NCBI GenBank assembly: GCA_017412705.1 | Contig: JAFPWS010000003.1 | Location: 1 to 47,083, forward strand | DNA: 47,083 nucleotides | Reading direction: 5' to 3' | Source: Prevotella sp. | GTDB taxonomy: Bacteria; Bacteroidota; Bacteroidia; Bacteroidales; Bacteroidaceae | Shown here: positions 1,849 through 41,729 of the stretch, piece after piece | How the letters are laid out: each line of letters begins with the position of its first letter | Position numbering within the stretch: the stretch's first letter is position 1 | Made by a program: the position numbers and the translations under genes | The notes under the pieces: generated by a model | Told to the model about the DNA's origin: nothing | What the model saw: only the letters and a program-made list of their open reading frames with translations | Database searches by the model: none

Positions 1849-1936
1849 TGCCCCGTCCGCTGACGTGTTCCGCCCGGCTTGCTGTCAGTCACCGCCCCGT
1901 CCTCTGACGGTCTCCGCCCCGTCCGCCAAGCCCTTC
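1849..1936. repeat. Tandem array, four 22-bp units (array 1)
   Basis: Units at 1849-1870, 1871-1892, 1893-1914 and 1915-1936. Each starts CGCCC (TGCCC in the first) and ends in C. Units 1 and 3 share GCCCCGTCC.CTGACG, and unit 4 shares GCCCCGTCCGC with unit 1. Unit 2 is the most diverged. The rest of the gap at 1783-2180 shows no convincing gene: an open frame over it is mostly shadow of the barrel gene plus low-complexity sequence. Confidence 0.7.
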
Positions 1937-2180
1937 ACTCCCTTTTTGGACGCTGCGATGGTACGACCGCCATATTGTCATGGCCATGACAAACGTTCAC
2001 GAAAAAGTTGCAGTTTTTTCTGTTCACATTTTGATTTAAAAGAGAGAAAGGGAAAAGAAAAAAAGAAAGCTTCCCCCCAACCCCCCTATTAAAGAATAAA
2101 CAAGAAAAAGGGTTAGAAGAGAAAACGATATATATAGCCGATGGCGATTTTTCTGGCTTTTCTTCTGTTGAGAAGGGGCA

Positions 2181-2219
2181 GGCCGTCGCTAATCAAAAAG
2201 TCACATTGACGGCCTTTTT
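2181..2219 (+). terminator. Hairpin terminator upstream of the dicarboxylate transporter
   Basis: GGCCGTC (2181-2187) pairs with GACGGCC (2208-2214) across a 20-nt loop and is followed by TTTTT. It probably ends rightward transcription from the receptor fragment. Confidence 0.6.
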
Positions 2220-2250
2220 CAGACCGTTTTCTAACATTTTCCCTTTTTTC

Positions 2251-2281
2251 TTTGCTGTTTCGGATTTTTTTCTTAACTTTG
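2251..2281 (+). promoter_or_regulatory. Bacteroidota-type promoter of the dicarboxylate transporter
   Basis: TTTG (2251-2254), a 19-nt spacer and TAACTTTG (2274-2281) match the Bacteroidota -33/-7 consensus. Transcription would start near 2288, leaving a 5' UTR of about 34 nt. Confidence 0.75.
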
Positions 2282-2321
2282 CATCCAAGAAAATTATTAC
2301 AATAACTAAAAAAAAGAGCTT

Positions 2322-3767
2322 ATGTCTTTAATTATGATTCTACAACTCATGATAGTGCTTGGTGCCCTTTGGGTTGGTTCTCGTTATGGCAGCCTGGCCC
2401 TCGGTGCTATTTCCGGTATTGGTCTTGCGCTGCTCGTCTTCGGCTTCGGCATGAAACCGGGCTCTCCTCCTACCGACGTCATCTACATCATCATCGCAGC
2501 CGTGACCTGTGCCGGTATCATGCAGGCGTCGGGTGGCATGGACTGGTTGATTCAGATAGCCGAGAAGATGTTGCGCAAGCATCCGGACCGTATCACTTTC
2601 CTTGCACCGCTTTGCACTTTCTTCCTGACGGTGCTGGTAGGTACGGGTCACGTGGTCTATACCCTGATGCCCATCATCTGCGACATTGCCCTGAAGAAGG
2701 GTATTCGTCCCGAGCGTCCTTGCGGTGTGGCCTCTATTGCCTCTCAGGTGGGCATCACCTGCTCGCCCATCGCTGCTGCTGTCGTGGCCTTCGTAAGTAT
2801 CTCCAACGCCAATGGCTTCGACGTCACTATTCCCGGCGTGCTGATGGTTTCCATCCCTGCCTGTGTCTGTGGTCTGATGGCTGCCGCCGCAGCGTCTTAC
2901 CACCGTGGTCTTGACCTGGACAAGGACCCCAAGTTCCAGGCCAGAATTAAGGACCCTGCACAGTATGAATACATCTACGGCAGCTCTGCCACGACGCTCG
3001 ACAAGGAGATTCCTACCGAGGCCAAGCGTGCCGTCTTCATATTCCTCGGCGCACTGGTGGTCATTGTCTTCTTTGCCATCTTCCAGAATGCCCTGCCCAC
3101 TTACGACACCATGCGTGCCATCAAGGGTGCCGAGCCGCTGAACATCACACCAGCCTTGTCGGTTACCGCCGACCAGCTGGTAAAGGCCAAGATACATGTC
3201 GACGGTATGACGGAGACTTTCCAGAAACCACTGGCCATGAACCTGGTCATCCAGATTGTCATGATTACCGCTGCCGCCCTGATGATTATCTTCTGCAAGG
3301 CCTCTCCCAAGAAAGCCGTGGCCGGTCCCGTGTGGCAGTCCGGCATGGTGGCCGTTGTGGCTATCTACGGCATCGCCTGGCTGGCAGACACCTATTTCTC
3401 CAACTATCTGAGCGAGATGCAGGTTATGCTGGCTGATATTGTCAAGCAGTATCCCTGGTCTATCGCCCTGGTGTTCTTTCTGGTTTCCGTACTCATCAAC
3501 TCGCAGGGAGCTGTCGTGGTGGCCATGCTGCCCCTCGCCTACTCGCTGGGCATTGCCGGACCCGTGCTGCTGGGCGTGCTACCCAGTGTCTACGGATACT
3601 TCTTCATTCCCAATTATCCTTCTGATATTGCCACTGTCAACTTCGACCGTTCCGGCACCACCGTTATTGGCAAGTACCTGCTGAACCACTCCTTCATGAT
3701 GCCCGGACTCATCTGTGTCTTCACCTCTACCATTGTGGCATATATTCTTTCCATGATTTTTTACTAA
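2322..3767 (+). CDS. dcuB: Anaerobic C4-dicarboxylate transporter (DcuA/DcuB family)
   Basis: A 481-residue, very hydrophobic inner-membrane protein. The N-terminal third follows the DcuA/DcuB pattern closely: a first membrane helix, PGSPPTDVIYIIIA, QASGGMDWLIQIAEK, then LVGTGHVVYTLMPIICD and IRPERPCGVASIASQ. In that family the protein exchanges or takes up fumarate, malate, aspartate and succinate, which suits an anaerobe with fumarate respiration and succinate export. At 481 residues it is somewhat longer than the usual 430-450, with an added soluble stretch between helices near residues 215-300. The ATG at 2322 fits the promoter upstream. A cytidylate-kinase-like gene follows 12 nt after the stop, probably cotranscribed. 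DcuA versus DcuB cannot be decided by eye. Confidence 0.9.
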   Translation: MSLIMILQLMIVLGALWVGSRYGSLALGAISGIGLALLVFGFGMKPGSPPTDVIYIIIAAVTCAGIMQASGGMDWLIQIAEKMLRKHPDRITFLAPLCTFFLTVLVGTGHVVYTLMPIICDIALKKGIRPERPCGVASIASQVGITCSPIAAAVVAFVSISNANGFDVTIPGVLMVSIPACVCGLMAAAAASYHRGLDLDKDPKFQARIKDPAQYEYIYGSSATTLDKEIPTEAKRAVFIFLGALVVIVFFAIFQNALPTYDTMRAIKGAEPLNITPALSVTADQLVKAKIHVDGMTETFQKPLAMNLVIQIVMITAAALMIIFCKASPKKAVAGPVWQSGMVAVVAIYGIAWLADTYFSNYLSEMQVMLADIVKQYPWSIALVFFLVSVLINSQGAVVVAMLPLAYSLGIAGPVLLGVLPSVYGYFFIPNYPSDIATVNFDRSGTTVIGKYLLNHSFMMPGLICVFTSTIVAYILSMIFY

Positions 3768-3779
3768 ACATTGTCAGAT

Positions 3780-4424
3780 ATGAACAAGAACGAGAAATTC
3801 ATCATTGCCATCAACCGGGAGTTGGGTTCTGGTGGCCGTACCGTCGGTGAGAAGCTTGCAGCCAAGTTAGGAGTACCTTTCTACGACAAGGCTTTGATCA
3901 GGGCACTGGAAAAGAAGTATCGCCTCACCGTTGACGAAATAGAAAGCCTGAAAGGTCGCAAGCATGGCTGGTGGGCAGACTTCGAACGTGCAATAGGCAT
4001 CGGCGATGCCCTAAATAGTTCGCGCTTCTACTACCAGTCCAAGCTGGACGACGAGCCGGAGCTGCTCACTACCGAGGAGATTTGGAAGGCCGAGAAGGAA
4101 ATTCTGATGGGTATTGCCGAGACCCGCTCCTGTGTCATTGCAGGTCGCACGGCCTTTCACGTCCTGAAAAAACATCCCAACCACCTGAACATCCTTATCA
4201 AGGCACCCTTGGAGCAGCGTATACAGCGCATTCTCCGCAAGCAGGACATAACCCGTGAGGAAGCCGAGAAGACCATTAAGAAGGTGGACGAGATGCGCGA
4301 GAACTATGTGCAGAAGTACACCGGCACATCGCGCTACGACACTCGCAACTACGAGCTGGTCATCGACATGGCCGGAAAGACGGAAGACCAGGTGGTAGAC
4401 CTAATTCTGAACTATATCGGCTGA
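3780..4424 (+). CDS. Cytidylate-kinase-like family protein
   Basis: A 214-residue protein that starts FIIAINRELGSGGRTVGEKLAAKLG, the P-loop-like opening of the cytidylate kinase-like family (AAA/NMP-kinase fold) that is common in Bacteroidota and Firmicutes. Later it has the pattern VIAGRTAFHVLKKHPNHLNILIKAPLEQRIQRI and a lid-like region with ITREEAEKTIKKVDEMRENY. It probably phosphorylates a nucleotide or another small molecule, but the substrate of this branch is not established, and it is not the housekeeping Cmk. I chose the ATG at 3780 over a TTG at 3771. It lies 12 nt after the transporter gene and is probably in its operon. Confidence 0.8.
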   Translation: MNKNEKFIIAINRELGSGGRTVGEKLAAKLGVPFYDKALIRALEKKYRLTVDEIESLKGRKHGWWADFERAIGIGDALNSSRFYYQSKLDDEPELLTTEEIWKAEKEILMGIAETRSCVIAGRTAFHVLKKHPNHLNILIKAPLEQRIQRILRKQDITREEAEKTIKKVDEMRENYVQKYTGTSRYDTRNYELVIDMAGKTEDQVVDLILNYIG

Positions 4425-4447
4425 CCTCCCGTACAGTCGGGACAAAT

Positions 4448-4486
4448 AAGGCGAGTGAAGCGTTCTTGCTTCACCCGCCTTTATTT
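4448..4486. terminator. Bidirectional terminator between convergent genes
   Basis: A 14-bp stem with one mismatch: the left arm is 4448-4461 and the right arm 4468-4481, with TTCACCCGCC on the right. It is T-rich on the plus side (TTTATTT) and on the minus side (CTTATTTG). It serves both the kinase-like gene and yycJ. Confidence 0.75.
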
Positions 4487-4500
4487 CATATTTCAAGACC

Positions 4501-5304
4501 TTATTCCAGTTCGTATGGTCCTGTGGGCGAGTTACGCTTCAAGACCTCCAGCTGGACATCGGCTCCGGGAATCACTCCATAGCTGCGCAACAGCGTTTCT
4601 ACCGTCTTGCGGGCCAGCTCGGGATGGTTATTCTCCTCGCTGAGGTGGCACAGCCAGATGTGCTGCAGGAAGTCAGACATGTTGTCTGCCAAGGCCTGGG
4701 CACAGGCACGGTTTGAAAGGTGGCCCGTACCAGAGAGAATGCGTTCCTTGAGGAACTTGGGATACGGTCCGCTCATCACCATCTCTTCATCGTGGTTGGC
4801 TTCTATCACCAAGTGGCGCGCCTGCTGTATATAGCCTTTCATCTGGTCGGTCACCTCGCCTGCGTCGGTAATGATACAGAAGTTGGTGCCCCCGGCCTCG
4901 ATGAAGTAACCCACATTGTCGCTGCTGTCGTGAGGCACGGCAAAGGGCGTCACCAGAAACTCGCCTATCTGTACCGGCTGGTCCTTCTCCAGCACCTTTG
5001 CCATCTCAGGGGCAATCTTCTGGGTGACACAATAGTTGCGGTTGATGCCTACATGCACCTTGCGGGTGGCATAGACGGGTATGTTGTAGTCGTGGCTGAA
5101 GGAGCCTACGGATTTTATGTGGTCGGCATGGTCGTGGGTAATCAGCACATGACGGACTTGCGAAAGACTGATGCCGTACTCGCGGAAGTCTTTCTTCAGT
5201 CCCCGTATGCCTACGCCTATATCGATGAGCAGGGCGTCCGTTGGCGTTTCCAACAGATAGCAGTTTCCGCTGCTTCCACTACCGAAAGATATGAATTTTA
5301 GCAT
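4501..5304 (-). CDS. yycJ: YycJ/WalJ-type metallo-beta-lactamase fold hydrolase
   Basis: 267 residues with a metallo-beta-lactamase fold. It opens with FISFGSGSSGNCYLL, the signature start of the YycJ/WalJ family, and has the metal-binding motif THDHADH at residues 56-62. More metal ligands are plausible at VPHDSSDN, ITDAGE and the C-terminal CHLSEENN. Members are probable nucleases (RNase Z/exonuclease fold) linked to DNA repair or cell-wall stress in other bacteria; the precise role here is unknown. The frame is open further upstream to 5334, but the ATG at 5304 is the right start because the protein fold begins at once and the -7 element at 5324-5331 overlaps the longer version. Confidence 0.88.
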   Translation of the reverse strand: MLKFISFGSGSSGNCYLLETPTDALLIDIGVGIRGLKKDFREYGISLSQVRHVLITHDHADHIKSVGSFSHDYNIPVYATRKVHVGINRNYCVTQKIAPEMAKVLEKDQPVQIGEFLVTPFAVPHDSSDNVGYFIEAGGTNFCIITDAGEVTDQMKGYIQQARHLVIEANHDEEMVMSGPYPKFLKERILSGTGHLSNRACAQALADNMSDFLQHIWLCHLSEENNHPELARKTVETLLRSYGVIPGADVQLEVLKRNSPTGPYELE

Positions 5305-5323
5305 TGTAAGTTCAAATTTCGTG

Positions 5324-5331
5324 CAAAGGTA
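5324..5331 (-). promoter_or_regulatory. -7 element of yycJ
   Basis: TACCTTTG on the minus strand, 19 nt before the yycJ ATG. No clear -33 box is seen. The 82-nt divergent region also holds the promoter of the lipoprotein gene. Confidence 0.6.
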
Positions 5332-5374
5332 CAAATAAAATAAAGATTAAGCGTGAAAAATTAAATATTATTTG

Positions 5375-5382
5375 TATTTTTG
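5375..5382 (+). promoter_or_regulatory. -7 element of the small lipoprotein gene
   Basis: TATTTTTG fits TAnnTTTG and ends only 4 nt before the ATG at 5387, so the transcript would have almost no leader. The -33 region is AT-rich without a clear TTTG. Confidence 0.5.
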
Positions 5383-5386
5383 CACT

Positions 5387-5830
5387 ATGAAACATCTGAA
5401 AGTCTTTATGGCTGCCCTGCTACTTGCCGGCTGTGACTTGGGGTTCAATGGCGACGAGGCTGCCCGTGATGCTGCTGTGGCGTGGGCCGACGCCTACTTT
5501 AACTGCGACTTCCACGAGGCTGCGGAATATGCCACCCCCGAGAGCGGGAAGTGGTTGCGCTTTGCAGCCTCCAACACCACAGAGGACGGACTTGAGCTGT
5601 TGCGCGAAAGAAATGCCAAAGTGGAGGGTGACGACTACTATCCTGTTGCCAACGATACGCTGCGTGTCATCAAACTGAAGGTGTGGAACCCTTTGCTGCC
5701 TACCGTCCCAGGCCAGGAGGCCCGTCAGGCTGAAAAAGGTGAGTTCCTCGTCACTGTCGTCAAGCGCGACGGAAGCTGGAAGGTTAGAATGGAAGGCCTA
5801 CCGCGAAGTGAAAAGCAAAGTCGCGACTAA
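5387..5830 (+). CDS. Small predicted lipoprotein, function unknown
   Basis: 147 residues. It starts MKHLKVFMAALLLAGC, a short signal peptide with a lipobox (LAGC), so it should be lipid-anchored in the envelope. The mature part begins with an acidic helix (DEAARDAAVAWADAYFNCDFHEAAEYAT) followed by strands ending EFLVTVVKRDGSWKVRM. This resembles the NTF2-like or DUF4878 type of small Bacteroidota lipoprotein, which is a fold guess, not a recognised family. The ATG at 5387 gives the signal peptide; a TTG at 5372 would overlap the promoter. The last 47 bp overlap the convergent tamL gene. Confidence 0.75.
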   Translation: MKHLKVFMAALLLAGCDLGFNGDEAARDAAVAWADAYFNCDFHEAAEYATPESGKWLRFAASNTTEDGLELLRERNAKVEGDDYYPVANDTLRVIKLKVWNPLLPTVPGQEARQAEKGEFLVTVVKRDGSWKVRMEGLPRSEKQSRD

Positions 5831-7994
5831 GCTTTGGATGGATGATGGGGAAGTGTTCCTTTTCTGTTTTGTAGACAGGGTTGACAGCCTTCATACCCAT
5901 ATCGAAACGGAGAATAAAGTAGTCAAAGTTAAAGCGGATGCCAAGGCCATAGCTGACGGCTATCTGCTTCCAGAAGTCTGACAGCCGGAATTGTCCCCCG
6001 GGCTGGTTCTCATAGTCGCGCAGATTCCAGATATTGCCTGCGTCAACAAACAAGGCTCCTCCCAGTTTCCAGAACAGGTGGGCGCGGTACTCCAGGTTGA
6101 CGTCGAGCTTCATGTCGCCCGTATGCATCAGGTAGTTGTATCCCCCATCCTCATTGTCGTAGTTTCCCGGTCCCAGACTTCTGACGCTCCATCCACGGAC
6201 GCTGTTGGCACCGCCGGAGAAGTACATCTTCTCAAAAGGCAGCACGTCGCTGTTGCCATAGGGATAGGCTATGCCGAACCCGATGTGGAAGACGATCTGG
6301 TTGCGGTAGTCAAGCTGGAAGTAGCGGGAGTAGTCGAAGTCGCCCTTCACGTACTGGGCAAACGCCACGTTCAGGAAGGTGTATTCATCGTCCTCGTTCT
6401 TATGGAAGCCGAAGGTGTTGGCCATCAGGCTGAGCAGATTGCCGCCAGTCTCGATATTGGTCTTGATGGCGTACGTTCCGTTATTGTAGGCATAGCGGAA
6501 ACCGGTGCGCATAATGAAGAGGTCCTGATAGTTGAAGAGCAACAGGGCATTGCGGTTGGCAATGTCTTCCATATACTCTTTCCTGAACTTTTCGCTAATC
6601 CAGGGCATGGTGATGAAGTTCAAATCCAGCAGGTCTAACTGGTAGCGGTCCCTCCTGTAGGGGAAGTCCCACTTGTACCGCCATCCTACGGAGAACACGC
6701 GTCGCAGGAACTCCGGACGGTTCTGCAGGTCATAGAGCAACGACACCTCACTGGTGGCATTGGCACTCCTATGGAACGACTCCGGCAGGAACGGTGCAAT
6801 GAAGCGTGGGAACTGTAGCTTGGTCTGCAGACTGTATTCCAGGAAGTTCGAGTTGGAGTAGCCCTCCAGTCCCTTGATGGCCTCGAAGGCCCCGCGCAGC
6901 TCAATGCTCAGCGCCTCGGAACCATGGAACAGGTTACGGTTCACGTATGTCAGCGAGGCCGCTGCACCCAGGTCGCCTGCTGTATTGGTACCCTCAGGCT
7001 GGAACGATATCGTCGACGGCTTGTTGGTGCTGATGGCAATGTCGCAGTCTATCAGTGCCGAGTCAGGATGCTCTCGCAGGCTGATGTTGGTGTAGCGCAC
7101 TGCCCCCAGGCGTCCGAAGTGGTTGTAGGTAGACTGCAGGTCGCTGGACGCGTAGAGCTTTCCCTCCTGCAGGTACGTGTTGTTCTGCAGCACCTTGGGG
7201 CGCAGGTGTATCACCGAGTCGTCAGCATTACCACTCAGATAGCGGATTCTGTTGATGGTGTACTGTCTGTGGGGGGCATCGGCAACCTGGCTGCTGCGAA
7301 ACCGGTGCAGCACCAGCGTCAGGTCTATGTCCGTCGTCCCCTCTACCGAGTCGGCCCTGTAACTGATGAAGTCCTTGTTGAAACGGAAGTAGCCCTGGTT
7401 GGTCAGCAGCGAGGTGATGCGCTTGCGCTCGTTGTCCAAGTTCTCCACGTTGAACATCATACCTTTTTCCAGTCCCCTGTTCACTATGCTGTCCATGCCT
7501 AACAGGCGGGCAATGGCCGTATCCTGAATGTCGTAGCCCACATTCCGCATATGGTATGCCGGGCCGGGATGCAGCTCGTAGACGGTGCGCAGCTTCTTTT
7601 TCCTGCTCATCGTCAGCACATCAACGCCGGCACGCAGGTATCCCTTGTTCATCAGCTGTTGCTGGATGCTCTTCATCGACAGGTAGGTCTGTACCGAGTC
7701 ATAGATGACGGGCGGCTCTCCTATGGAGCGCAGCGTGCGGTTTATCCACTTGGAGGTGTCGCGCCCCGACAGGTTGTAGGTGTAGAGGGGAATCTTCAGC
7801 GCAGAGAACCAGCGTGCATTGCCGCGCTGACGTACAAACTGCTTCAGCTCAGCCGTATTGATATCACTCGCCTTGACGTCGCTCTTCACCTGAGCACGAT
7901 CCAGCAAATACTCGCCATCGGCGACGTATTTCGTCTCCGAGCAAGCCGTCAGCGTCAGGGCGGCAACAGCGACTATGGCGAACTTGTTGCGCAT
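5784..7994 (-). CDS. tamL: TamL: lipoprotein BamA/TamA-family outer membrane assembly protein
   Basis: 736 residues. The N-terminus MRNKFAIVAVAALTLTACSETKYV is a lipoprotein signal with Cys18. POTRA-like domains follow (roughly residues 25-300, with LTNQGYFRFNKDFI), then a C-terminal 16-strand barrel. The barrel has the family signature FSGGANSVRGWSVRSLGPG, LEYRAHLFWKLGGALFVDAGNIWNL and a terminal strand FAFHFAVGLPF. In Bacteroidota TamL is the lipidated TamA homologue that works with TamB in moving proteins or lipids to the outer membrane. No tamB lies nearby. The divergent neighbour is a TrmH-type methyltransferase, an arrangement I remember as common in this phylum. Its -7 element (8002-8009) lies 7 nt before the ATG. 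Confidence 0.88.
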   Translation of the reverse strand: MRNKFAIVAVAALTLTACSETKYVADGEYLLDRAQVKSDVKASDINTAELKQFVRQRGNARWFSALKIPLYTYNLSGRDTSKWINRTLRSIGEPPVIYDSVQTYLSMKSIQQQLMNKGYLRAGVDVLTMSRKKKLRTVYELHPGPAYHMRNVGYDIQDTAIARLLGMDSIVNRGLEKGMMFNVENLDNERKRITSLLTNQGYFRFNKDFISYRADSVEGTTDIDLTLVLHRFRSSQVADAPHRQYTINRIRYLSGNADDSVIHLRPKVLQNNTYLQEGKLYASSDLQSTYNHFGRLGAVRYTNISLREHPDSALIDCDIAISTNKPSTISFQPEGTNTAGDLGAAASLTYVNRNLFHGSEALSIELRGAFEAIKGLEGYSNSNFLEYSLQTKLQFPRFIAPFLPESFHRSANATSEVSLLYDLQNRPEFLRRVFSVGWRYKWDFPYRRDRYQLDLLDLNFITMPWISEKFRKEYMEDIANRNALLLFNYQDLFIMRTGFRYAYNNGTYAIKTNIETGGNLLSLMANTFGFHKNEDDEYTFLNVAFAQYVKGDFDYSRYFQLDYRNQIVFHIGFGIAYPYGNSDVLPFEKMYFSGGANSVRGWSVRSLGPGNYDNEDGGYNYLMHTGDMKLDVNLEYRAHLFWKLGGALFVDAGNIWNLRDYENQPGGQFRLSDFWKQIAVSYGLGIRFNFDYFILRFDMGMKAVNPVYKTEKEHFPIIHPKLSRDFAFHFAVGLPF

Positions 7995-8001
7995 TTTCGT
8001 G

Positions 8002-8030
8002 CAAAATTACGAAAATAATTCGTAACTTTG
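8002..8030. promoter_or_regulatory. Divergent -7 elements of tamL and the TrmH-type gene
   Basis: TAATTTTG on the minus strand (8002-8009) faces left to tamL, 7 nt from its ATG. TAACTTTG on the plus strand (8023-8030) faces right, 19 nt before the ATG at 8050. The two promoters overlap within 56 bp, so each would affect the other. Confidence 0.6.
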
Positions 8031-8049
8031 TCCCCAAATAGGAAAAAAT

Positions 8050-12046: not shown

Positions 12047-12058
12047 TCTTTTTGCTGT

Positions 12059-14050: not shown

Positions 14051-14140
14051 TCTTCTTCCTATTCTGAATGCATTGCCACACTCGCTTGTCGAGAACGCCT
14101 AACCCCAGAGGACCATTCACGACTTTTTCTCTTCGCCATA

Positions 14141-14282
14141 GCAGGTATTCTGACTTGCGGCCCTTCAGTACAAACGTCTTCCCAACAATATCAGTGACTT
14201 CGTGTTTGTACGCTCTCTACGGCAGCTTACAGCTGCGGGACAGTTGGGGACTTGCACCCCATTCCCTGACTATAGCGCCTGC
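14141..14282 (-). promoter_or_regulatory. Cobalamin (AdoCbl-type) riboswitch
   Basis: Read on the minus strand, the core elements appear in order: closing-stem arm GCAGG, GGTGCAAGTCCCC, CTGTCCCGCAGCTGTAAGC (about 14221-14242), a central stem region with CACTG and GGGAAG, and the B12-box-like end GCCGCAAGTCAGAATACCTGC (14141-14161) whose CCTGC pairs with GCAGG. These are the conserved blocks of the cobalamin riboswitch class. It lies between the promoter at 14282-14312 and btuB, so cobalamin should lower expression of btuB-btuG-btuF-btuC. An open reading frame across it on the plus strand is spurious. Confidence 0.93.
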
Positions 14283-14312
14283 AAAGGTAGCGAAAAACGA
14301 GCGGAATGCAAA
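14282..14312 (-). promoter_or_regulatory. Promoter of the B12 operon
   Basis: On the minus strand TTTG (14309-14312), a 19-nt spacer and TACCTTTG (14282-14289) match the Bacteroidota consensus. Transcription should start near 14275, giving a leader of about 225 nt that contains the riboswitch. Confidence 0.8.
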
Positions 14313-14419
14313 GAAAAACCACATTTTTCTTTCATTTCAGAGGTGCATCCTACCTTGCCCAAAGGTCAAAGTTACGAATAAGCGAGTGAAAAACCAAGAG
14401 ACAGTGGCCTCTGGGAGAA

Positions 14420-14485
14420 TCGTATTACGAGTGAAGAGCCTTCGTATTACGATTGAAGAGCCTTCGTATTACGATTGAGCAGCAC
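14420..14485. repeat. Tandem array, three 22-bp units (array 2)
   Basis: Units at 14420-14441, 14442-14463 and 14464-14485. Each begins TCGTATTACGA(G/T)TGA, and the first two share AGAGCCT at the end. Each holds the palindrome CGTA-T-TACG. It sits between the B12 promoter and the glgP terminator; the remaining 100 nt of the gap show nothing recognisable. Confidence 0.75.
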
Positions 14486-14493
14486 CCGACAAG

Positions 14494-14531
14494 AAAAATG
14501 TCTGCCTATACAAGGAAGTACAGGCAGACAT
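14494..14531 (-). terminator. Terminator of the glycogen synthase-phosphorylase operon
   Basis: ATGTCTGCCT (14499-14508) pairs with AGGCAGACAT (14522-14531). On the minus strand the stem is followed by TTTTTC. It stands 23 nt past the glgP stop. Confidence 0.85.
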
Positions 14532-14553
14532 CTTATATAATACTCTTGGTTGA

Positions 14554-23864: not shown

Positions 23865-25403
23865 ATGAAAGCATTCGAGAATTTAGAGATTTGGTGGGTG
23901 ACTGGTGCGCAGTTGCTCTATGGAGGTGAGACCGTGAAAATTGTCGACGGACACTCTCAGGAAATGGTTGACGGCCTGAATGCATCAGGCATCATTCCCG
24001 TCAAGGTGGTTTATAAAGGCACGGCAAACTCTTCTAACGAGGTAGAGGCAGTGATGAAAGCCTGCAACAACGACGACAAGTGTATCGGTATCATCACCTG
24101 GATGCACACGTTCTCGCCTGCCAAGATGTGGATCAAGGGCCTGCAAGACCTGCAGAAACCCCTGCTCCACTTCCACACCCAGTACAACGCCGAGATTCCC
24201 TGGGAGACCATGGACATGGACTTCATGAACCTGAACCAGAGTGCTCACGGTGACATCGAGTTCGGACACATCTGCACCCGCATGCGTGTTCCCCGCAAGG
24301 TGGTTTGCGGCTACTGGAAGAGCGAGGAAGCCCAGAAGAAGATTGCCGTCTGGGCACGCGTGGCTGCCGGTGTGGCTGATGCCCGCAAGGTACGCTGTCT
24401 GATGTTCGGCATGAACATGAACAACGTAGCCGTAACGGATGGTGACCGCGTAGAGTTCGAGCAGCGTCTGGGCTACCATGTCGACTACTACCCCGTCTCC
24501 AGCATGATAGACTACTGGAAGAAGGTTAACGACAAGGAGGTAGACGAGCTCGTCGAGGAGTATAAGCAGCAGTACACCATCAAGATAGACGAAAGCGGCG
24601 AAGAAGTTTATTGGCAGAAGGTGCGCAATGCTGCACGTGCTGAGATTGCCCTGCGCCGTGTGCTGAAGGACGAGGGTGCTACAGCCTTCACCACCAACTT
24701 CGACGACCTGGGCGATGCAGACATCAACGACCCGGACTTTGCCGGCTTCGACCAAATCCCAGGCCTGGCCTCACAGCGCCTCATGGCTGAGGGTATCGGC
24801 TTTGGTGCCGAGGGCGACTGGAAGACAGCCTGCCTCTATCGCACGCTCTACATCATCCAGCAGGGCATGCCTACCGGTTGTTCGTTCCTCGAGGACTACA
24901 CCCTGAACTTTGCCGGTGACCGCAGCTCATGCCTACAGAGCCACATGCTGGAGGTTTGTCCGCTCATTGCTGTCGACAAGCCTAAGCTCGAGGTTCACTT
25001 CCTGGGCATTGGCATCCGTAAGCAGCAGACTGCCCGCCTCGTATTCACCTCAAAGGTAGGTCGAGGCATCAAGGCAACCGTGGTAGACCTGGGCAACCGC
25101 TTCCGCTTGATTTCCCAGGAGGTTGAGTGCATCGAGCCAAAGCCCATGCCTAACCTGCCTGTCGCTTCAGCCCTCTGGGTTCCCCAGCCCAGCTTCGAGA
25201 TAGGTGCCGGCGCCTGGATACTGGCTGGTGGTACACACCACAGTGCCTTCTCGTACGACATCACCGAGGAGTACTGGGAAGACTTCGCCGAAATCCTCGG
25301 TCTCGAGTATGTGCGCATCAACAAGCAGTCGACCACCAGCGGCATCAAGCGCGCCCTGCAGATGAACGAAATCTACTACATGCTGAACAAGGCGCTGAGG
25401 TAA
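23865..25403 (+). CDS. araA: L-arabinose isomerase
   Basis: 512 residues, near the usual 500. It opens with LEIWWVTGAQLLYGGETVKIVDGHSQEMV, typical of AraA, and keeps the Mn-binding region: FGAEGDWKTA, FLEDYTLNFAGDRSSCLQSHMLEVCP and the late GGTHHSAFSYD histidines. It isomerises L-arabinose to L-ribulose in the cytoplasm. It is the last gene of unit 1 and is followed by a terminator. Confidence 0.97.
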   Translation: MKAFENLEIWWVTGAQLLYGGETVKIVDGHSQEMVDGLNASGIIPVKVVYKGTANSSNEVEAVMKACNNDDKCIGIITWMHTFSPAKMWIKGLQDLQKPLLHFHTQYNAEIPWETMDMDFMNLNQSAHGDIEFGHICTRMRVPRKVVCGYWKSEEAQKKIAVWARVAAGVADARKVRCLMFGMNMNNVAVTDGDRVEFEQRLGYHVDYYPVSSMIDYWKKVNDKEVDELVEEYKQQYTIKIDESGEEVYWQKVRNAARAEIALRRVLKDEGATAFTTNFDDLGDADINDPDFAGFDQIPGLASQRLMAEGIGFGAEGDWKTACLYRTLYIIQQGMPTGCSFLEDYTLNFAGDRSSCLQSHMLEVCPLIAVDKPKLEVHFLGIGIRKQQTARLVFTSKVGRGIKATVVDLGNRFRLISQEVECIEPKPMPNLPVASALWVPQPSFEIGAGAWILAGGTHHSAFSYDITEEYWEDFAEILGLEYVRINKQSTTSGIKRALQMNEIYYMLNKALR

Positions 25404-25404
25404 T

Positions 25405-25441
25405 GGACAATTGCCAATTGACAATTGACAATTTGACAATT
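25405..25441. repeat. Short tandem repeat of a GACAATT-type unit
   Basis: Four or five imperfect copies of a roughly 10-bp motif (GACAATTG/CCAATTGACAATT) just after the araA stop. It is AT-rich and carries no gene. Confidence 0.65.
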
Positions 25442-25505: not shown

Positions 25506-26132
25506 CTAAGGCTTACTCAGCACGTAGAACTTCTGGCTGCGACTGCCTTTGCTGGTAATGCCCGACGTGGGGTCGAGAGCCAGGCGGCACAGCTCCTTCG
25601 ATGCCGTTGTGCGCGAGAGCCCCGTTAGCTTCACGTAGTCAGGAACACGCATAATCGTATTCTCCTCCAGAAAATCGCGGGCTTTCTGGGCACGCTCTGC
25701 CGGAGTCAGCTTCGACTTACGTAACCGGCTGACGCCTCCACGCTCCAGCACACACTTGCGGCTTGTCGCCCTTATCAGGTCGTTGTCAGCCCTATAAGCC
25801 ACGCCCGTCACCCTGATGCTATGGGCATTGCGACTACTCTCGCCCTCTTCAAAAGCATCCTGCAACATGTCGTCTCTCACGCCCAGCTTGGCGTTGAACG
25901 TGCCGATGCCATCCAGCTTCACCGAGAATCCTTCAGCCATGCTCAACGCCAGCTTCTCACTTACCAGCGACAGCACGCCGACGATAGAACTCTCCTCCAT
26001 GTGACCCTCGCGAGCGCACAGGCTCACGAACTGTTCAAAACTCATCGGCCTGAGCGCCATCTTGTAGTAAGCCTGCGTCCGCCCCGTTCCGTTCAGGTCC
26101 GCAATTTCCTTTTTGATATACTTTGCATACAT
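25506..26132 (-). CDS. HU-HIG-like DNA-binding protein with C-terminal winged-helix-like region
   Basis: 208 residues. Residues 1-125 have the Bacteroidales HU-HIG-like pattern (MALRPMSFEQFVSLCAREGHMEESSIVGVLSLVSEKLALSMAEGFSVKLDGIGTFNAKLG), with an acidic then basic strand region. The C-terminal 75 residues are basic and contain ADVxxTGLSRTTASKELCRLA-like sequence (residues about 160-190: NTIMRVPDYVKLTGLSRTTASKELCRLALD), which reads as a helix-turn-helix. It probably shapes or represses DNA, possibly at the array beside its own promoter; that link is inference. It lies on the opposite strand to the arabinose genes and has its own promoter. Confidence 0.82.
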   Translation of the reverse strand: MYAKYIKKEIADLNGTGRTQAYYKMALRPMSFEQFVSLCAREGHMEESSIVGVLSLVSEKLALSMAEGFSVKLDGIGTFNAKLGVRDDMLQDAFEEGESSRNAHSIRVTGVAYRADNDLIRATSRKCVLERGGVSRLRKSKLTPAERAQKARDFLEENTIMRVPDYVKLTGLSRTTASKELCRLALDPTSGITSKGSRSQKFYVLSKP

Positions 26133-26152
26133 ATTTTTAACCGTTTATGCTG

Positions 26153-26184
26153 CAAAGTTAAGCAATTGGATTGAAAAAAACAAA
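26153..26184 (-). promoter_or_regulatory. Promoter of the HU-HIG-like gene
   Basis: On the minus strand TTTG (26181-26184), a 20-nt spacer and TAACTTTG (26153-26160). The -33 box touches the first unit of the 21-bp array (26183-26266). Confidence 0.75.
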
Positions 26185-26266
26185 TCGTCGACGTGGTTTT
26201 ATTAATCCACGACGACGATTTATCAATCCACGTCGTGGATTTAACAATCGTCGTCGCAGATTTAAC
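26183..26266. repeat. Tandem array, four 21-bp units of palindromic type (array 3)
   Basis: Units at 26183-26203, 26204-26224, 26225-26245 and 26246-26266. Each reads AAT, an 11-nt core, then (A/T)TTTA and two variable bases. The cores are CGTCGACGTGG, CCACGACGACG, CCACGTCGTGG and CGTCGTCGCAG, that is, CGTCG and CCACG half-sites in changing order. Units 1 and 2 form a long inverted repeat, and unit 3 is a near-perfect palindrome (AATCCACG-T-CGTGGATT). A frame across it would encode a 7-residue repeat (RRGFINP, RRRFINP, RRGFNNR, RRRFNFA). A second TAACTTTG box follows at 26263-26270 on the plus strand. The rest of the 347-nt gap, up to about 26426, shows no gene. Confidence 0.85.
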
Positions 26267-26426
26267 TTTGCAAAGCACCTCCCGACCTTTCCACCGGCAC
26301 CTTACAACGTTTTTCCCCGTACCTCCAAACATTATCGGATCGTAGACATCATCTCTCGTTCCGTACATACGGAGCAGAAAACACGAACAAATACACTCGT
26401 TAACCGCAATTTTTCCATTCAAAAGG

Positions 26427-33002: not shown

Positions 33003-33018
33003 TAGGTAGTAAGCTGTG

Positions 33019-33885: not shown

Positions 33886-33896
33886 CTTAAAAAACG

Positions 33897-33927: not shown

Positions 33928-33980
33928 CAGATTATCATAAAATATCAAAGTTATACACTAACATAACATCAATTATTATT

Positions 33981-36439: not shown

Positions 36440-36446
36440 CATAAGG

Positions 36447-36472
36447 AACGGCGATTATTTCGCCGTTTTTTT
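36447..36472 (+). terminator. Terminator of the tkt-rpiB unit
   Basis: AACGGCG (36447-36453) and CGCCGTT (36461-36467) with a 7-nt loop and a T run through 36472. Confidence 0.9.
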
Positions 36473-36473
36473 G

Positions 36474-36481
36474 TACCTTTG
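36474..36481 (+). promoter_or_regulatory. -7 element of the LolA-like gene
   Basis: TACCTTTG ends 8 nt before the ATG at 36490 and follows directly after the T run of the previous terminator. The transcript would be nearly leaderless. Confidence 0.6.
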
Positions 36482-36489
36482 CAGCCCGT

Positions 36490-37107: not shown

Positions 37108-37144
37108 CGTATAAGGTTTGGGGCTATCGGCTGTGCGTCGCCTG

Positions 37145-39211
37145 CTAATAGATGGTAAACAATATCTTGTCCATCTGGGTCTCGTTGATGCAGACCACGT
37201 GGTCGGTGACATAGCGATACAGACCGGCATTGTTGGTGACCACCAGTCGATACAGCTGGCCAGGTGTGGCATCCGTACTGAGCACGGTAACCGCCCGGCT
37301 GTTCTTCATCGGCAGATACTCGTGGAAGCAGCCCGACGACATTGTCTCAAACACGTCGCTATCGTCGGCAACGGCACGTCCGTAAATGGTCTCCTCGGTA
37401 TAGTAGCAGCCGTTGTTGTGAGGTGTCTGACCCGTAAACTTCTTCATGCGTGTCGTGGCAAGGCAGCACTCTCCGGCTCCGAAAGCCACCACGCGCTGCA
37501 GTTTAGGCCACAGGGAATTGGCCACCGGGCTTTCTGAGGCGAAAGCCTTGCTAACCTCATCGGCGCGCTGGGAGTCAGCCTCGCACAATTCCTCTAACAG
37601 CTCGTTGCGATGTCGCGTCATGTATTCGAACATGTCGGCCACGCGTCGTGTGTCGCATGCCACAATCTGGTCGATGTCGCGGTCAAGCAGCGCATACCGG
37701 CATATCGTGTGCATCTCCTCCTGCGGGTCAGTCTTGAAGAACTGTGCGTCGGGCATGGAGAACGTCGCACGGTTCTTGCCTCGCGCATAGTGGTAGTACC
37801 ACATGTATTTCTTCACCATCTGGCTCTCCAGCGTCTCCACCGTACACCCGTCGTTGGTCTGGCTTTTTCGCGGTCCGACGATGGCCACGAGCAGGTTGTG
37901 GTGACCCTTCAGCGTCGTGGCGAAATACTCCATGTAGGGTTGCAGATGCTCGTCGGTACAGGGGAATCGTTGTCCCTTGGCATTGACGAGATACTGCCGC
38001 ACGCTGGCAGAGGTCAGTATCCCACTCTCGCCGATGTTGGTCTGCAAGTCAATCAGGCGTTTGTAGTTATCATAGTCGGTCAGCGGCACCAGCTGCTGGT
38101 AGTCGGCCAGGGTCTCCGTCTCGTCGAAGTGGTAGTGCTTTCCGTAGTCCGTCGTAGCGTTGACGCGCAGTATCTTTATCAGGTCTGGCCACCCGTTCTG
38201 CGCATCCTTCAACATGGGACTTTCCATCGGATTCTCGGGATTGCGCAACACTTCCTGTGGCAGGTGATAGTTCAGGTAGCACTCCTCGGGCGAATGGAGC
38301 TTTGACGGCGTCATCTTACGCAGTTTCTTCAGGTTGGGCTCTGCCATTTCGCACAGCGTGCGCCGTTCCTCTACTGTCAGGTCGGATGCCAGATAGTACT
38401 GTGTCAGCAGCATAAACATCGTCTGTGCCGTATCGTTCACGTCAACTCCCAGCGCCTCAAGGTCGTCGATGATGCGGTTGGCCGACTTGAAGCAGTCCAC
38501 CAGGTCCTCCATCGACTTCTTCTTGTCCTGTATGATGGAGCCGCTATTGATGAAGTAGTGATAGCCGATGAACTGCGGCAGGTAGCAGACACGGTCGGCC
38601 TTCATCAGACACATGCCCGTATGCCATACATCCTCAAGCCACATGACTTCCGTTGAGAACGTGAGGTCGTGCTTGCGCAGGAAAGCCACGTCAAAGAGTC
38701 GCGATGTCGAGAATGGCCACAGTCCGCTGAACATCTCCTCCTGCCGGAAGTCCTTACGGTCCAGCACTATGCGCCACTTCGTCTGGTTCCACAGCACTTT
38801 CTCCGTGTGCGGATGCAGCGTCTCTTTCTCCAGCTCGTACTCGCGTCGGAAGGTCACCACTTGGGCTCCCGTCTCAATCATTTCACGACGGACCACCTCC
38901 AGGCAGTCGGGGGTATAGCTGTCGTCGCCGTCGAGGAATCCCAAGTAAGGTGACGTCACGAACTGCATGCCGTGGTTGCGCGGCGTTGCCGGTGTATGCA
39001 TACCGTCGTTCAGCTCCTTGATGATGACGTTGTTGTTGTTTTTGAACATCTCCGAGAGGCGCGGCAAATACGTCGGCTCAGAGTTATGCACTACGATAAT
39101 CCACTCTATGTTGTTAAAGCCGATTGACTGGCAGCGCATCGACTCAGCACACTTCTCAAACATGCCCATGTCCACATTGTGGAAGGGCGTCACAACCGAT
39201 ACCTTATACAT
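37145..39211 (-). CDS. GT2 glycosyltransferase fused to a GH3 (auxin-conjugase-type) domain
   Basis: 688 residues. Residues 1 to about 330 are a GT2 glycosyltransferase: YKVSVVTPFHNVDMGMFEKCAESMRCQS, the DxD-type motif YLGFLDGDDSYTPDCLE, and MWLEDVWHTGMCL. From about 332 to the end the sequence follows GH3 acyl-acid-amido-synthetase proteins: TTDYGKHYHFDETETLADYQQLVPLTDYDNYKRLI, LWPKLQRVVAFG, CFHEYLPM and GQLYRLVVTNNAGLYRYVTDHVV. In normal GH3 enzymes the ATP loop is SGTTGKPKYIPVT; here the aligned region is LVNAKGQRFPCT (K412 kept, the SGTTG part lost), so ATP-dependent chemistry is doubtful. The GT half has no signal peptide. Acceptor, donor and the role of the GH3 part are unknown. Single-gene unit with its own promoter. 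Confidence 0.85.
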   Translation of the reverse strand: MYKVSVVTPFHNVDMGMFEKCAESMRCQSIGFNNIEWIIVVHNSEPTYLPRLSEMFKNNNNVIIKELNDGMHTPATPRNHGMQFVTSPYLGFLDGDDSYTPDCLEVVRREMIETGAQVVTFRREYELEKETLHPHTEKVLWNQTKWRIVLDRKDFRQEEMFSGLWPFSTSRLFDVAFLRKHDLTFSTEVMWLEDVWHTGMCLMKADRVCYLPQFIGYHYFINSGSIIQDKKKSMEDLVDCFKSANRIIDDLEALGVDVNDTAQTMFMLLTQYYLASDLTVEERRTLCEMAEPNLKKLRKMTPSKLHSPEECYLNYHLPQEVLRNPENPMESPMLKDAQNGWPDLIKILRVNATTDYGKHYHFDETETLADYQQLVPLTDYDNYKRLIDLQTNIGESGILTSASVRQYLVNAKGQRFPCTDEHLQPYMEYFATTLKGHHNLLVAIVGPRKSQTNDGCTVETLESQMVKKYMWYYHYARGKNRATFSMPDAQFFKTDPQEEMHTICRYALLDRDIDQIVACDTRRVADMFEYMTRHRNELLEELCEADSQRADEVSKAFASESPVANSLWPKLQRVVAFGAGECCLATTRMKKFTGQTPHNNGCYYTEETIYGRAVADDSDVFETMSSGCFHEYLPMKNSRAVTVLSTDATPGQLYRLVVTNNAGLYRYVTDHVVCINETQMDKILFTIY

Positions 39212-39268
39212 ATTCTACATACTTTATTCATTACCACTTCACCGCCTCTGCTTTCATCATTACGTCAG

Positions 39269-39276
39269 CAAAGATA
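39269..39276 (-). promoter_or_regulatory. -7 element of the GT2-GH3 gene
   Basis: TATCTTTG on the minus strand, 57 nt before the ATG. No TTTG is seen at the right distance. The 256-nt gap to the next gene holds only this and the pheC-like promoter. Confidence 0.55.
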
Positions 39277-39402
39277 CGATTTTTATGGCAGAATCGTTAC
39301 GCTTTTCATTATAATTATTATGCCTTTAACATTTTTACACCCATGCCCGGCCATGCCGGAACTCTCTTTTGTGCTAAGACATTCATTTTCCCCTCAAAAA
39401 GT

Positions 39403-39433
39403 TTTGGTAATGCGGAAATAATCGCTATCTTTG
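39403..39433 (+). promoter_or_regulatory. Promoter of the pheC-like gene
   Basis: TTTG (39403-39406), a 19-nt spacer and TATCTTTG (39426-39433) are an exact consensus match. The start is near 39440. Confidence 0.75.
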
Positions 39434-39468
39434 CCAACATGAAATGTTGAATCAATAATGAGAAGACA

Positions 39469-40287
39469 ATGAGAAAGATTCTGGATTGGAGACTCGCTGC
39501 CATCCTACTGACATTATGCAGCTCTACAGTATTCGCGGCTTGTTCTGGCAGTAACACTTCACCTGACGGAAAGGTCACAGAAATCATAGAGCGAGGCACT
39601 TTGCTCGTTGGTACTACTGGCGACTATCGTCCGCTGTCGTTCTGTGAGGCAGACGGAACATATTGGGGCTTTGGCATAGAAGTGGCCAAAGAAATTGCCG
39701 GCTACATTGGCGTCGAGCCTGCCTTCGTGAAAACCTCATGGCCTACGCTGACAGCCGATGTGTTGGCAGAACCTCAGCTGTTCGACCTTGCCATAGGCGG
39801 CATTACCATTACTGACACCCGGCGTGAGACCATGCTGATGAGCGAAGGGTATCTGGCTAATGGCAAGACTATTCTTTGCCGCACATCAGAAGCAGACCGT
39901 TTCCGCACATTGGCCGACATAGACAAACCTGAGGTACGCGTCATGGTGAATCCCGGAGGACTGAATGAGAAGTTTGCCAAGGAGAACCTCACTCATGCCA
40001 TCATCGTTGTTCATCAGAAAAACGAGGAAATACCTTCTCTTGTAGCTCAGGGAGAGGCCGACGTAATGATTACAGAGATTACCGAAGCCCCTTACTATGT
40101 GCAAGCGGACTCCCGACTGGCAGCCCCACTATTGAACGAGCCTTTCACTCATGGAGAGATTGGTGTCCTGATGCGGAAGGAGCAAGACGATTTAATGGAA
40201 AAGGTAAATAACGCCATCCGAAAAATGAAGTCTGACGGCACACTACGCCGACTGCATGAAAAATACGGATTGATATACGCGTATTAA
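39469..40287 (+). CDS. pheC: Periplasmic cyclohexadienyl dehydratase-like protein (PheC type)
   Basis: 272 residues. Export signal MRKILDWRLAAILLTLCSSTVFAAC, possibly a lipoprotein (FAAC). The rest is a periplasmic solute-binding-protein fold (SBP_bac_3), but it carries the features that set PheC apart from plain binding proteins: LLVGTTGDYRPLSF, VKTSWPTLTADV, FDLAIGGITITDTRRETM, VRVMVNPGGLNEKFAKENL and EADVMITEITEAPYY. PheC turns prephenate or arogenate into phenylpyruvate or phenylalanine outside the cytoplasm. Arginine, glutamate and lysine positions of the active site are plausible but not checked. An amino-acid-binding protein is the alternative. The next gene is on the opposite strand. 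Confidence 0.75.
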   Translation: MRKILDWRLAAILLTLCSSTVFAACSGSNTSPDGKVTEIIERGTLLVGTTGDYRPLSFCEADGTYWGFGIEVAKEIAGYIGVEPAFVKTSWPTLTADVLAEPQLFDLAIGGITITDTRRETMLMSEGYLANGKTILCRTSEADRFRTLADIDKPEVRVMVNPGGLNEKFAKENLTHAIIVVHQKNEEIPSLVAQGEADVMITEITEAPYYVQADSRLAAPLLNEPFTHGEIGVLMRKEQDDLMEKVNNAIRKMKSDGTLRRLHEKYGLIYAY

Positions 40288-40362
40288 TGAAGAAAAGTCT
40301 CAGCATATTCGGGCAACATGACCTGTTTTTACCATTTGGATGGTAAAGGACTTCCAACGATT

Positions 40363-41337
40363 TCACTTCAGCTTCTTGCTCGCTGCCAACCCTGCCAGAC
40401 GGCCATTGACCACAATGTCGGCCACTCCGTTTCCGCCCAATCGGTTTGCGCCATGCAGACCGCCTGTCACCTCGCCCGCTGCGTAGAGGCCTGGTATCGG
40501 TGAGCCGTCAGCCCGCAGCACCTGGGTCTCAGTGTTCACACTCAAGCCGCCCATGGTGTGGTGGATAGCCGACTTTACGCGTACAGCATAGAAAGGCGGT
40601 GTCTCCAACCGCGTCGGCATCTCTGTGGCACTGCGTCCGAAGTCGTCGTCAAGCCCCTTTTCCTGTTGGGCATTGTATCGGCTGATGCTTTCAGAGAGTC
40701 TTTCTGCCGGGATGTTGACACGGCTGGCCGACTCTTCTACGGTGCTCCCTTCGCTCAGCAGATGCTGGTTGGCGTAGGTCTCGATGGATGCCAGTGACTT
40801 CCTCACAGCCTGGTCGAACACGAGGAAAGCCTCACCGCCAGCCTGCTTCAAAATGGCCGCCGACACCACGTCGCGCGTTTCCATCTCGTTGCAGAAACGC
40901 TGCCCGTATTTGTTCACCAAGATGGCACCATTGCCTCTCACTGCTTCGGTAATGAGGATGTGGTTAGTGGCTTCTGCCGTGGGGTGAATCTGAATGTTCG
41001 CCATCTGGATGGTGGCACCTCCGACGGCTGCCATCCATCCGAAGGCATCGCCCGTAGCCCCGGGATGGTTCAATGTGGCAAATCCGCTCAGTGAGGGCTG
41101 AAGGCGCGTTACCATGTCGAGATTGGCTCCGAAACCACCCGTCGCAATGATGACAGCTTTTGAAGTGAGTGTATAACTGCTGCCGTCGGCATTCTGCACG
41201 CTGACACCAGTCACGCTGCCGTCGGAACTGGTAAGCAACCCTGTCACTTTGTTCGACGTGCGAATCTCGATATTGTCCTTCTCGCTGGCCGAGCGGAGCA
41301 CTTTCGTTAGTGTTTTCGATTGACAAAAAAGAGGCAA
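40363..41337 (-). pseudogene. C-terminal remnant of an FAD-dependent fumarate/urocanate-reductase-like flavoprotein
   Basis: About 320 residues that match the second two thirds of flavocytochrome-c-type reductases (FAD_binding_2): EIRTSNKVTGLL, TSKAVIIATGGFGANLDMVTRLQPSLSGFATLNHPGATGDAFGWMAAVGGA, IQIHPTAEA, AIHHTMGGLSVNTETQVL and the C-terminal FAD/substrate motif GLYAAGEVTGGLHGANRLGGNGVADIVVNGRLAG. The N-terminal GxGxxG nucleotide-binding domain (about 150 residues) is missing. The frame opens only with a TTG at 41337 and there is no plausible start, so this is a truncated gene. The break lies near 41320, where repeat-rich noncoding DNA begins. Confidence 0.8.
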
Positions 41338-41359
41338 GCGTCAAAAACTTCAAAACTAA

Positions 41360-41402
41360 TTGCGCAGAAAAGCATCCTTTGCGCAGAATCCCCGATTTTC
41401 CC
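41360..41402. repeat. Dispersed repeat with paired TTGCGCAG, copy 1
   Basis: TTGCGCAG at 41360-41367 and again at 41379-41386 (19-bp spacing), followed by a CCCGATTTTCC stretch. The same layout occurs at 42177-42217. Confidence 0.5.
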
Positions 41403-41464
41403 GAGAAAAGACAGGAGTGCAGGGCAAGGAAAAAGAGCACAGAGCAAAAAGGAACGTCATCTTT

Positions 41465-41574
41465 CGCGCGTTCTGACGGCTTCTCCCGCGCGTTCTAATG
41501 GCTTCCCCGGCGCGTTCTAACAGCTACTCCGGCTAGTTCTAATGGCTTCCCCGGCTCGTTCTAACGGAGCCAGA
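41465..41574. repeat. Tandem array, five 22-bp units (array 4)
   Basis: Exactly 110 bp: units at 41465-41486, 41487-41508, 41509-41530, 41531-41552 and 41553-41574. Each carries GTTCT(A/G)A at positions 6-12 of the unit; units 2 and 4 share GTTCTAATGGCTTCCCC. The first two units start CGCGCG, later ones GGC. Within the 409-nt gap between the flavoprotein remnant and the small membrane protein gene (41338-41746) I find no gene. Confidence 0.85.
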
Positions 41575-41641
41575 AAAGGTGTGCGGACGTAGCAAACGGG
41601 GGCATCCCCCTATTCAAACAGGGATTGAGAGCCGGGCTAAG

Positions 41642-41729
41642 TATCTTTTGCCTATAGCCAAAATATCTTTCACCTATAGCCAAAACAACTTGCGCCTATA
41701 GGCAAAAGACCTTTCGCCTATACGCAAAA
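41642..41729. repeat. Tandem array, four 22-bp units (array 5)
   Basis: Units at 41642-41663, 41664-41685, 41686-41707 and 41708-41729. Each ends CCTATA(G/C)(C/G)CAAAA, and units 1 and 2 start TATCTTT. Unit 3 contains the perfect palindrome GCCTATAGGC. It ends 17 nt before the stop of the small membrane protein gene. Confidence 0.85.

Follow-up and report, generated by a model that had tools for sequence, protein, structure and literature searches.

Arrays with a period of two helical turns

The window, by which we mean the whole stretch analysed here, covers positions 1–47,083 of the forward strand of contig JAFPWS010000003.1 from Prevotella sp. (assembly GCA_017412705.1). Among its genes, which include those for a phosphorylase, an HU-HIG protein and a TonB-dependent receptor, lie five short tandem arrays, designated A to E. 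A first-pass annotation had listed them with their unit counts and periods; the periods were reproduced by Tandem Repeats Finder (TRF) and the counts by direct reading of the DNA (Table 1). The observation is confirmed, and holds more broadly than first noted; the interpretation first placed on it is partly supported. We conclude that the arrays are minisatellites dispersed between genes, each unit being a dyad that spans two DNA turns and is directly repeated about two to six times, and that what they have in common is length and symmetry, with no common sequence. Judged by the relatives of its phosphorylase gene, the host appears to be a rumen Prevotella; the best of 80 retained loci related to this gene is 92% identical, and most of the relatives are Prevotella or Prevotellaceae, several of them rumen organisms.

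The spectrum of repeat periods was taken from 60 host stretches plus the window (1,105,135 bases), about one third of a genome that is assembled in 96 contigs and is 86% complete. These stretches were large contigs known from array hits and the starts of 20 low-numbered contigs; the array density of the sample is not an unbiased estimate because some were picked via array hits. TRF found 118 non-overlapping arrays, 39 of them with period 22, 10 with period 21, seven with period 24 and two with period 44; periods 19, 20 and 23 were represented by none. Outside long open reading frames (ORFs of at least 200 residues, a crude map), 37 of 79 arrays had period 22 and seven had period 21, and again there were none at 20 or 23. 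Counting runs of near-identical 12-mers at a given lag, which requires no repeat finder, gave 88 runs at lag 22, two at lag 20 and three at lag 23; locally shuffled host DNA gave 1–8. The other raised lags were those divisible by 3 (at most 42 runs), 7–14, 8, 11 and 16 (14–42 runs), and 44 (51 runs). A plot of unit length against count, the check proposed by the first-pass annotation, therefore shows a sharp peak at 22, made up of varied sequences.

Unit sequence and dyad symmetry

Pooling the sampled genomes gave 83 arrays with period 22 and 2.4 or more copies, and these were reduced to 45 units of which no two agree at 16 or more of the 22 positions. This is an upper figure for the number of independent families, because a few units are diverged variants of one family, such as F1, the largest in the host sample (13 arrays of AGTTTCTCGGTAGGAAACTACC-like units). 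Palindromes had been noted at first in several units only; the 45 distinct units proved strongly dyad-symmetric, with a mean longest arm of 5.02 bp, compared with 3.48 bp after shuffling (z 11.9), and with arms of at least 5 bp in 26 of them. Unreduced sets gave z 7.0 for the 39 host arrays and z 9.0 for 25 arrays from the 80 related loci. Palindromy was barely present at other periods (z 1.6 for period 21 in the 80 loci; z 2.5 for periods 15–20 and 24–39 pooled).

Arms of at least 5 bp were present in 38 of 65 arrays (null mean 7.9, maximum 16 over 30 rounds). In these 38, conservation was highest 4 bp from the axis (0.975), with minima at the axis (0.835) and 10 bp off it (0.865), the null being flat at about 0.90. 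Where unit identity was low the mean arm was 5.4 bp, where it was intermediate 5.2 bp, and where it was high 4.5 bp. Several units are evenly built (GTAACC-N5-GGTTAC-N5; AGTGCGGA-TAG-TCCGCACT-CAT; TTTTGCC-TATA-GGCAAAA-N4), so that half-sites alternate about every 11 bp; the units of families B, C and E are not evenly built. In two arrays at locus L205, a 17-bp core appears by eye to be near-constant while the 5-bp spacers vary. A common half-site motif, hinted at by the pooled arm profile, was sought in 46 units and dropped, as no k-mer stood out: the 12 commonest of lengths 4, 5 and 6 reached at most z 3.0 against base-swapped units (TGACA, 6 of 46).

Dispersed families and the compound element

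The window arrays are mutually unlike, as originally described, yet none is unique, and each belongs to a dispersed family. Copies were counted as distinct places in the host genome, the query's own included, after merging overlapping and opposite-strand rows. Array B (query 1780–2000) occupies at least 23 places (from 23 rows), a lower bound because only 40 of 52 candidates were scored; array C (14390–14500) occupies 22 (24 rows), array D (26130–26300) 12 (18 rows), and E and A together (41440–41760) 13 (17 rows). Dispersal to 12–23 places argues against plasmid iterons. Instead of the one shared repeat family that the first-pass annotation had named as counter-evidence, the arrays fall into many families that agree in period and not in sequence, although each array does match a dispersed family of its own.

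Arrays E and A belong together, as opposite ends of a single compound element whose linker is conserved. The linker is traceable in all seven aligned copies, most poorly in that at L008, which retains the last unit and part of the remainder only; the left end, AAGAAATTTCAACAA, is common to four of the seven. The L008 copy (about 1501–1572) lies between two near-copies of one gene end, resembling by eye an enclosing local duplication.

At 16 of 22 matches, 51 host arrays of period 21, 22 or 44, which include some coding 21-bp arrays, fall into 21 clusters, five of them with more than one member (13, 8, 6, 4 and 4). Of 60 genomes from this genus, 12 carry family A, the host being one of them; family D was found in one of 121 genomes of the taxonomic family and F1 in one of 149 genomes of the order, this one genome being the host in both cases. 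The repeat families turn over fast.

Table 1. Arrays and neighbouring features of the window; unit counts are from direct reading of the DNA
Feature	Position	Strand	Description	TRF row	Surroundings
24-bp repeat	44–98		2.3 copies		close to contig start
Array B	1849–1936	.	4 x 22 bp, CCGCCCCGTCC-type unit	1850–1926, period 22; weak, 62% matches, 10% indels	3' of ORF 58–1782
Cobalamin riboswitch	14123–14301	-	Rfam RF00174, 80.5 bits		precedes TonB-dependent receptor gene
Array C	14420–14485	.	3 x 22 bp, TCGTATTACGA-type unit	14420–14478, period 22	flanked by phosphorylase stop (14554) and cobalamin riboswitch
Heptanucleotide repeat	25402–25441		AATTGAC x 5.6
HU-HIG gene	25506–26132				beside array D
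Array D	26183–26266	.	4 x 21 bp, AATCCACGTCGTGGATT-type unit	26189–26249 and 26204–26266, period 21	divergent gap, HU-HIG gene / LRR_5 gene
FAD_binding_2 gene	40363–41337	-	profile positions 143–414 of 414 only		adjoins compound array
Array E	41465–41574	.	5 x 22 bp, CGTTCTAACG-type unit	41466–41567, period 22 (44 fits too)	one end of compound element
Linker	41575–41641	.	kept in other genomic copies (7-copy alignment)		compound element E–linker–A
Array A	41642–41729	.	4 x 22 bp, TTTTGCC-TATA-GGCAAAA + 4 spacer	41642–41731, period 22	other end of compound element

Apart from the cobalamin riboswitch, an Rfam scan of the window at gathering score returned nothing. The FAD_binding_2 gene is perhaps a gene fragment.

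Phase, pairing and copying direction

At L260, eight successive 22-bp rows carry differing arms around one axis column. Nine pairs of adjacent period-22/44 arrays were compared for phase by their TRF coordinates, and in five the axes are no more than 1 bp off a multiple of 11. In the flanks of 46 clear-axis arrays (of 93), dyads stay in phase with the lattice: of 44 phases scored, the two highest are 0 (z 4.6) and 10.5 (z 3.9), and these stay first and second when the four strong loci L260, L061, L219 and L224 are left out (z 3.5 and 2.7). Within the nearest 22 bp of flank, phase 0 alone stands out (z 4.1), 10.5 giving z 1.2. Double changes inside arrays keep pairing in 12 of 19 cases, compared with one third expected (P = 0.007).

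In 51 arrays, asymmetric positions were found shared in direct orientation 72 times and in inverse orientation five times, a count to which TRF contributes by itself selecting direct repeats; unit copying is mainly direct. Fold-back by serial inverted copying, an idea raised by L222 and L260, whose folds look mirror-like, was rejected on this count.

Arrays in other genomes

The peak at 22 bp with varied sequences recurs in relatives, with differing strength. The 80 Prevotella-like loci are phosphorylase-gene neighbourhoods, one from each relative (1,441,954 bases); they gave 57 runs at lag 22, six at lag 23, 12 at lag 20 and 89 at lag 14. TRF found 25 arrays at each of periods 22 and 21, and outside long ORFs 21 of 118 at 22 and 15 of 118 at 21. 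The commonest TRF period in these relatives was 7 (30 of 179 arrays), heptanucleotides, seen also in the window and in the high count at lag 14, forming a second repeat class (L154–L233). In one relative (L180), an array at 7497–7670 holds 8.3 near-identical 21-bp units and lies some 2.3 kb ahead of the phosphorylase gene. When orthologous slots downstream of this gene were compared, blastn matches stopped at the gene end in 80 of 80 relatives.

In two genomes of the same genus, G016 and G024, nine of 27 arrays outside long ORFs had period 22 and four had period 44; the lag count in G016 was 6 versus 1 for lag 22, and 22 for lag 41. Four period-41 arrays occur in 200 kb of G016 (L109–L118). 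Four genomes of other genera of the family (G061, G067, G068 and G072) together had 17 of 42 arrays at 22 and five of 42 at 21. The strongest was G067, with 24 runs at lag 22 and none at lags 20 and 23, followed by G061 (15 versus 1) and G068 (10 versus 1 at lag 23); the excess is weak in G024 and G072. The stretches of a further genome, G032, were mostly picked around family A hits, and its arrays were excluded from spectrum and gap counts and included in the symmetry, flank and copying tests.

In four genomes from other Bacteroidales families (362,427 bases), none of 16 arrays outside long ORFs had period 22, three had period 23 and three period 21, with four runs at lag 22 and ten at lag 23. 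In another Bacteroidales family, genome G197 has two 23-bp arrays of a single family with a ACAAGCTTGT-like core (L249, 8231–8298 and 9647–9736). Over 150 kb of Escherichia coli K-12 there were no runs at lag 22 and two TRF arrays overall.

Position relative to genes

Gap orientation was set by ORFs of at least 200 residues. Of 75 period-22/44 arrays in gaps, 29 were convergent, 35 co-directional and 11 divergent, where gap bases predict 15.5, 38.7 and 20.8 respectively. With arrays treated as independent, 29 per 211 convergent gaps against 11 per 257 divergent gaps gives an odds ratio of 3.6 (P = 0.0004). Arrays are thus enriched at convergent gene ends and scarce in divergent gaps; among the window arrays, only D (26183) lies in a divergent gap. 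The co-directional arrays show no clear preference, 19 of 35 being closer to the end of the upstream gene. Proximity to promoters, which had been suggested at the outset, is not the rule, because only 11 of the 75 arrays are divergent and 29 are convergent.

What keeps the period?

Two readings had been offered by the first-pass annotation, selection on spacing and a copying ruler of 22 bp. Both survive, and the peak they predict was found. We tentatively favour, with a probability of about 0.4, the reading that the arrays are DNA platforms read by geometry, at about one half-site per turn. In the clearest families, the two oppositely oriented half-sites of a unit come at about one per 11 bp, and the arrays may persist by offering a regular row of sites on one helix face to a dimeric or DNA-wrapping protein that senses geometry and shape above exact bases. 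Units would be supplied by duplication, and the spacing kept since off-phase copies would fail. Candidate readers could include a nucleoid protein, or else gyrase, which would remove the supercoils that arise where genes converge. The HU-HIG protein suggested earlier finds no support beyond the one gene beside array D.

A number of observations weigh against such platforms. Arms are shorter than 5 bp in 19 of the 45 distinct units, and the 11-bp harmonic of weak (A/T) and strong (G/C) base pairs is slight (z 2.7 in a set of 33 tests, where a further two reached 3.1). Without the same-family pair at L268, only four of eight adjacent unlike pairs are in phase, where about 5 in 22 is expected by chance, a count that is weak taken alone; in the window, E and A miss a common phase by 5 (181 bp between axes); and the second flank peak is at 10.5 instead of 11, where z is 0.8. 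Compensatory changes are few, with 189 single changes that break pairs and seven double changes that do not keep pairing. In the 80 loci lag 21 (117 runs) exceeds lag 22, although lag 21 is inflated there because 21 is a multiple of 3 and 7, so that coding repeats and heptanucleotides contribute. G024 gave four runs at lag 22, six at lag 20 and eight at lag 44, and G072 favours 21 (six runs at lag 21 and two at lag 22; TRF four of six and two of six). The 23-bp arrays of G197 fit a changing ruler as well as they fit a fixed DNA geometry. Lastly, no reader protein was identified.

A strong rival, somewhat unlikely in our estimate and ranked below the geometric platform, is that units are copied or inserted by a mechanism whose inherent quantum is 22 bp, in which an enzyme handling a hairpin and a fixed-length spacer adds units beside existing ones and the arrays have no function. 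It would explain direct copying, abutting unlike arrays, compound dispersed elements and the fast turnover of families such as D and F1. The rulers differ (22 in G067 as in the host, 21 in G072, 23 in G197), which somewhat favours a copying enzyme. No candidate enzyme is in sight, however, Y1 transposases being missing from five of eight genomes with arrays; the steady core and differing spacers at L205 look like constraint on the core; and more diverged arrays are no less symmetric. Carrying the geometric reading further, one could propose a family-wide code free of sequence, in which dyad lattices of about one half-site per turn keep spacing and symmetry, and in places phase across unlike arrays, while their bases turn over, and are read by shape alone by a structural protein or enzyme; we regard this wider proposal as doubtful. 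Quite improbable is a role in RNA, with tandem hairpins in 3' untranslated regions protecting or terminating transcripts. The enrichment at convergent gene ends would suit it, as would the folding of six of eight arrays better than shuffles (z −2.4 to −9.0), though tandem palindromes would do so regardless; in the window, two arrays of the five show no folding advantage over shuffled DNA (z 1.2 and 0.2), U-runs after each hairpin were not seen by eye, and the 22-nucleotide period is left unexplained.

Far less probable still are ordinary repetitive extragenic palindromic (REP) sequences or bacterial interspersed mosaic elements (BIMEs) spread by a REP-associated tyrosine transposase (RAYT, or TnpA-REP). 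The arrays are indeed palindromic, intergenic, situated at gene ends and species-specific, and the host has one Y1_Tnp gene (L093) in which the motifs NHVH and YIHQNP, read by eye, resemble subclass 2.6 of PMC6006769. Against this, the 3,360 bases around that gene contain no tandem array, and by eye no window units (the host gene alone was inspected), the gene being flanked by a 13-nucleotide inverted pair unlike them. Y1_Tnp was sought in the host and 11 other genomes; of the eight with arrays, it was found in G000, G016 and G072, but not in G024, G032, G061, G067 or G068, the five array-bearing genomes referred to above, which are 97–99% complete; these refute it as a general cause. Of the REP tags, GTAG/CTAC is present in nine of 46 units against 6.0 expected (z 1.8), and CGTC is outside the 12 commonest 4-mers. 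Least probable of all is plain replication slippage with unconstrained unit length, which accords with mainly direct copying but not with units that are clearly palindromic at period 22 and hardly at others; in the host it is refuted by the sharply peaked length spectrum, no broad spread of unit lengths being found.

If the geometry of the arrays is selected, they would represent a conserved chromosomal feature that homology searches overlook because there is no sequence to align, and would offer defined sites for tracking down the reader protein. If an enzyme makes the 22-bp quanta instead, it would represent a novel type of repeat-making enzyme.

Comparison with known systems

Among the matches listed in the open-access literature, a scope outside which lie most subscription papers and bioRxiv, none described a peak at 22 bp throughout a clade. 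The nearest published element found is BrickBuilt, a minisatellite within a miniature inverted-repeat transposable element of Porphyromonas gingivalis, which PMC4596501 describes as having a period of 23, one sequence family, 19 copies in strain ATCC 33277, relatives in other strains and in P. gulae, and IS5-like terminal repeats. Like the present arrays, it is dispersed and intergenic in a member of the Bacteroidales and is built of short direct repeats, each about two turns long, with leader and tail flanks and predicted stem-loops; the E–linker–A element, the only one examined in this respect, likewise carries tandem minisatellite repeats within a dispersed element whose flanks are conserved. 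Unlike BrickBuilt, the present arrays comprise many unlike families across genera, mostly of period 22, and the window units are of 22 or 21 bp; the arrays of G197 equal it in unit length. The 22-bp repeats of Porphyromonas mentioned in the first-pass annotation were thus a fair lead, even if BrickBuilt has a period of 23. The same source mentions 22-nucleotide repeats in P. gingivalis W83, and the 41-nucleotide repeats of MITEPgRS, which may be compared with the period-41 arrays of G016.

REPs, according to PMC3733652, carry GTAG or CGTC tags and occur predominantly as head-to-head dimers. With REPs and BIMEs the arrays share small palindromes (in the 26 distinct units with the longer arms), a mostly intergenic position, species-specific families and clustering (PMC3733652, PMC6006769), but they differ in that their copies follow one another directly at 22-bp intervals and that no RAYT accompanies them in general; nor, by eye, do the window units flank the host Y1_Tnp gene.

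The gyrase motif extends over 130 bp with a 10.75-bp GC period, and BIME-2 is bound and cleaved in intergenic DNA, according to PMC6379681. The arrays would resemble it as helically phased intergenic DNA read through its shape (indirect readout), although the 11-bp harmonic that gyrase favours is weak in them. On Bordetella promoters, PMC7250471 places head-to-head BvgA dimers at centres every 22 bp, with one monomer per turn and weak sites tolerated. Unlike these promoter sites of one regulator, the present arrays are scarce in divergent gaps and have many sequences, but they match the BvgA geometry of two turns with one half-site per turn.

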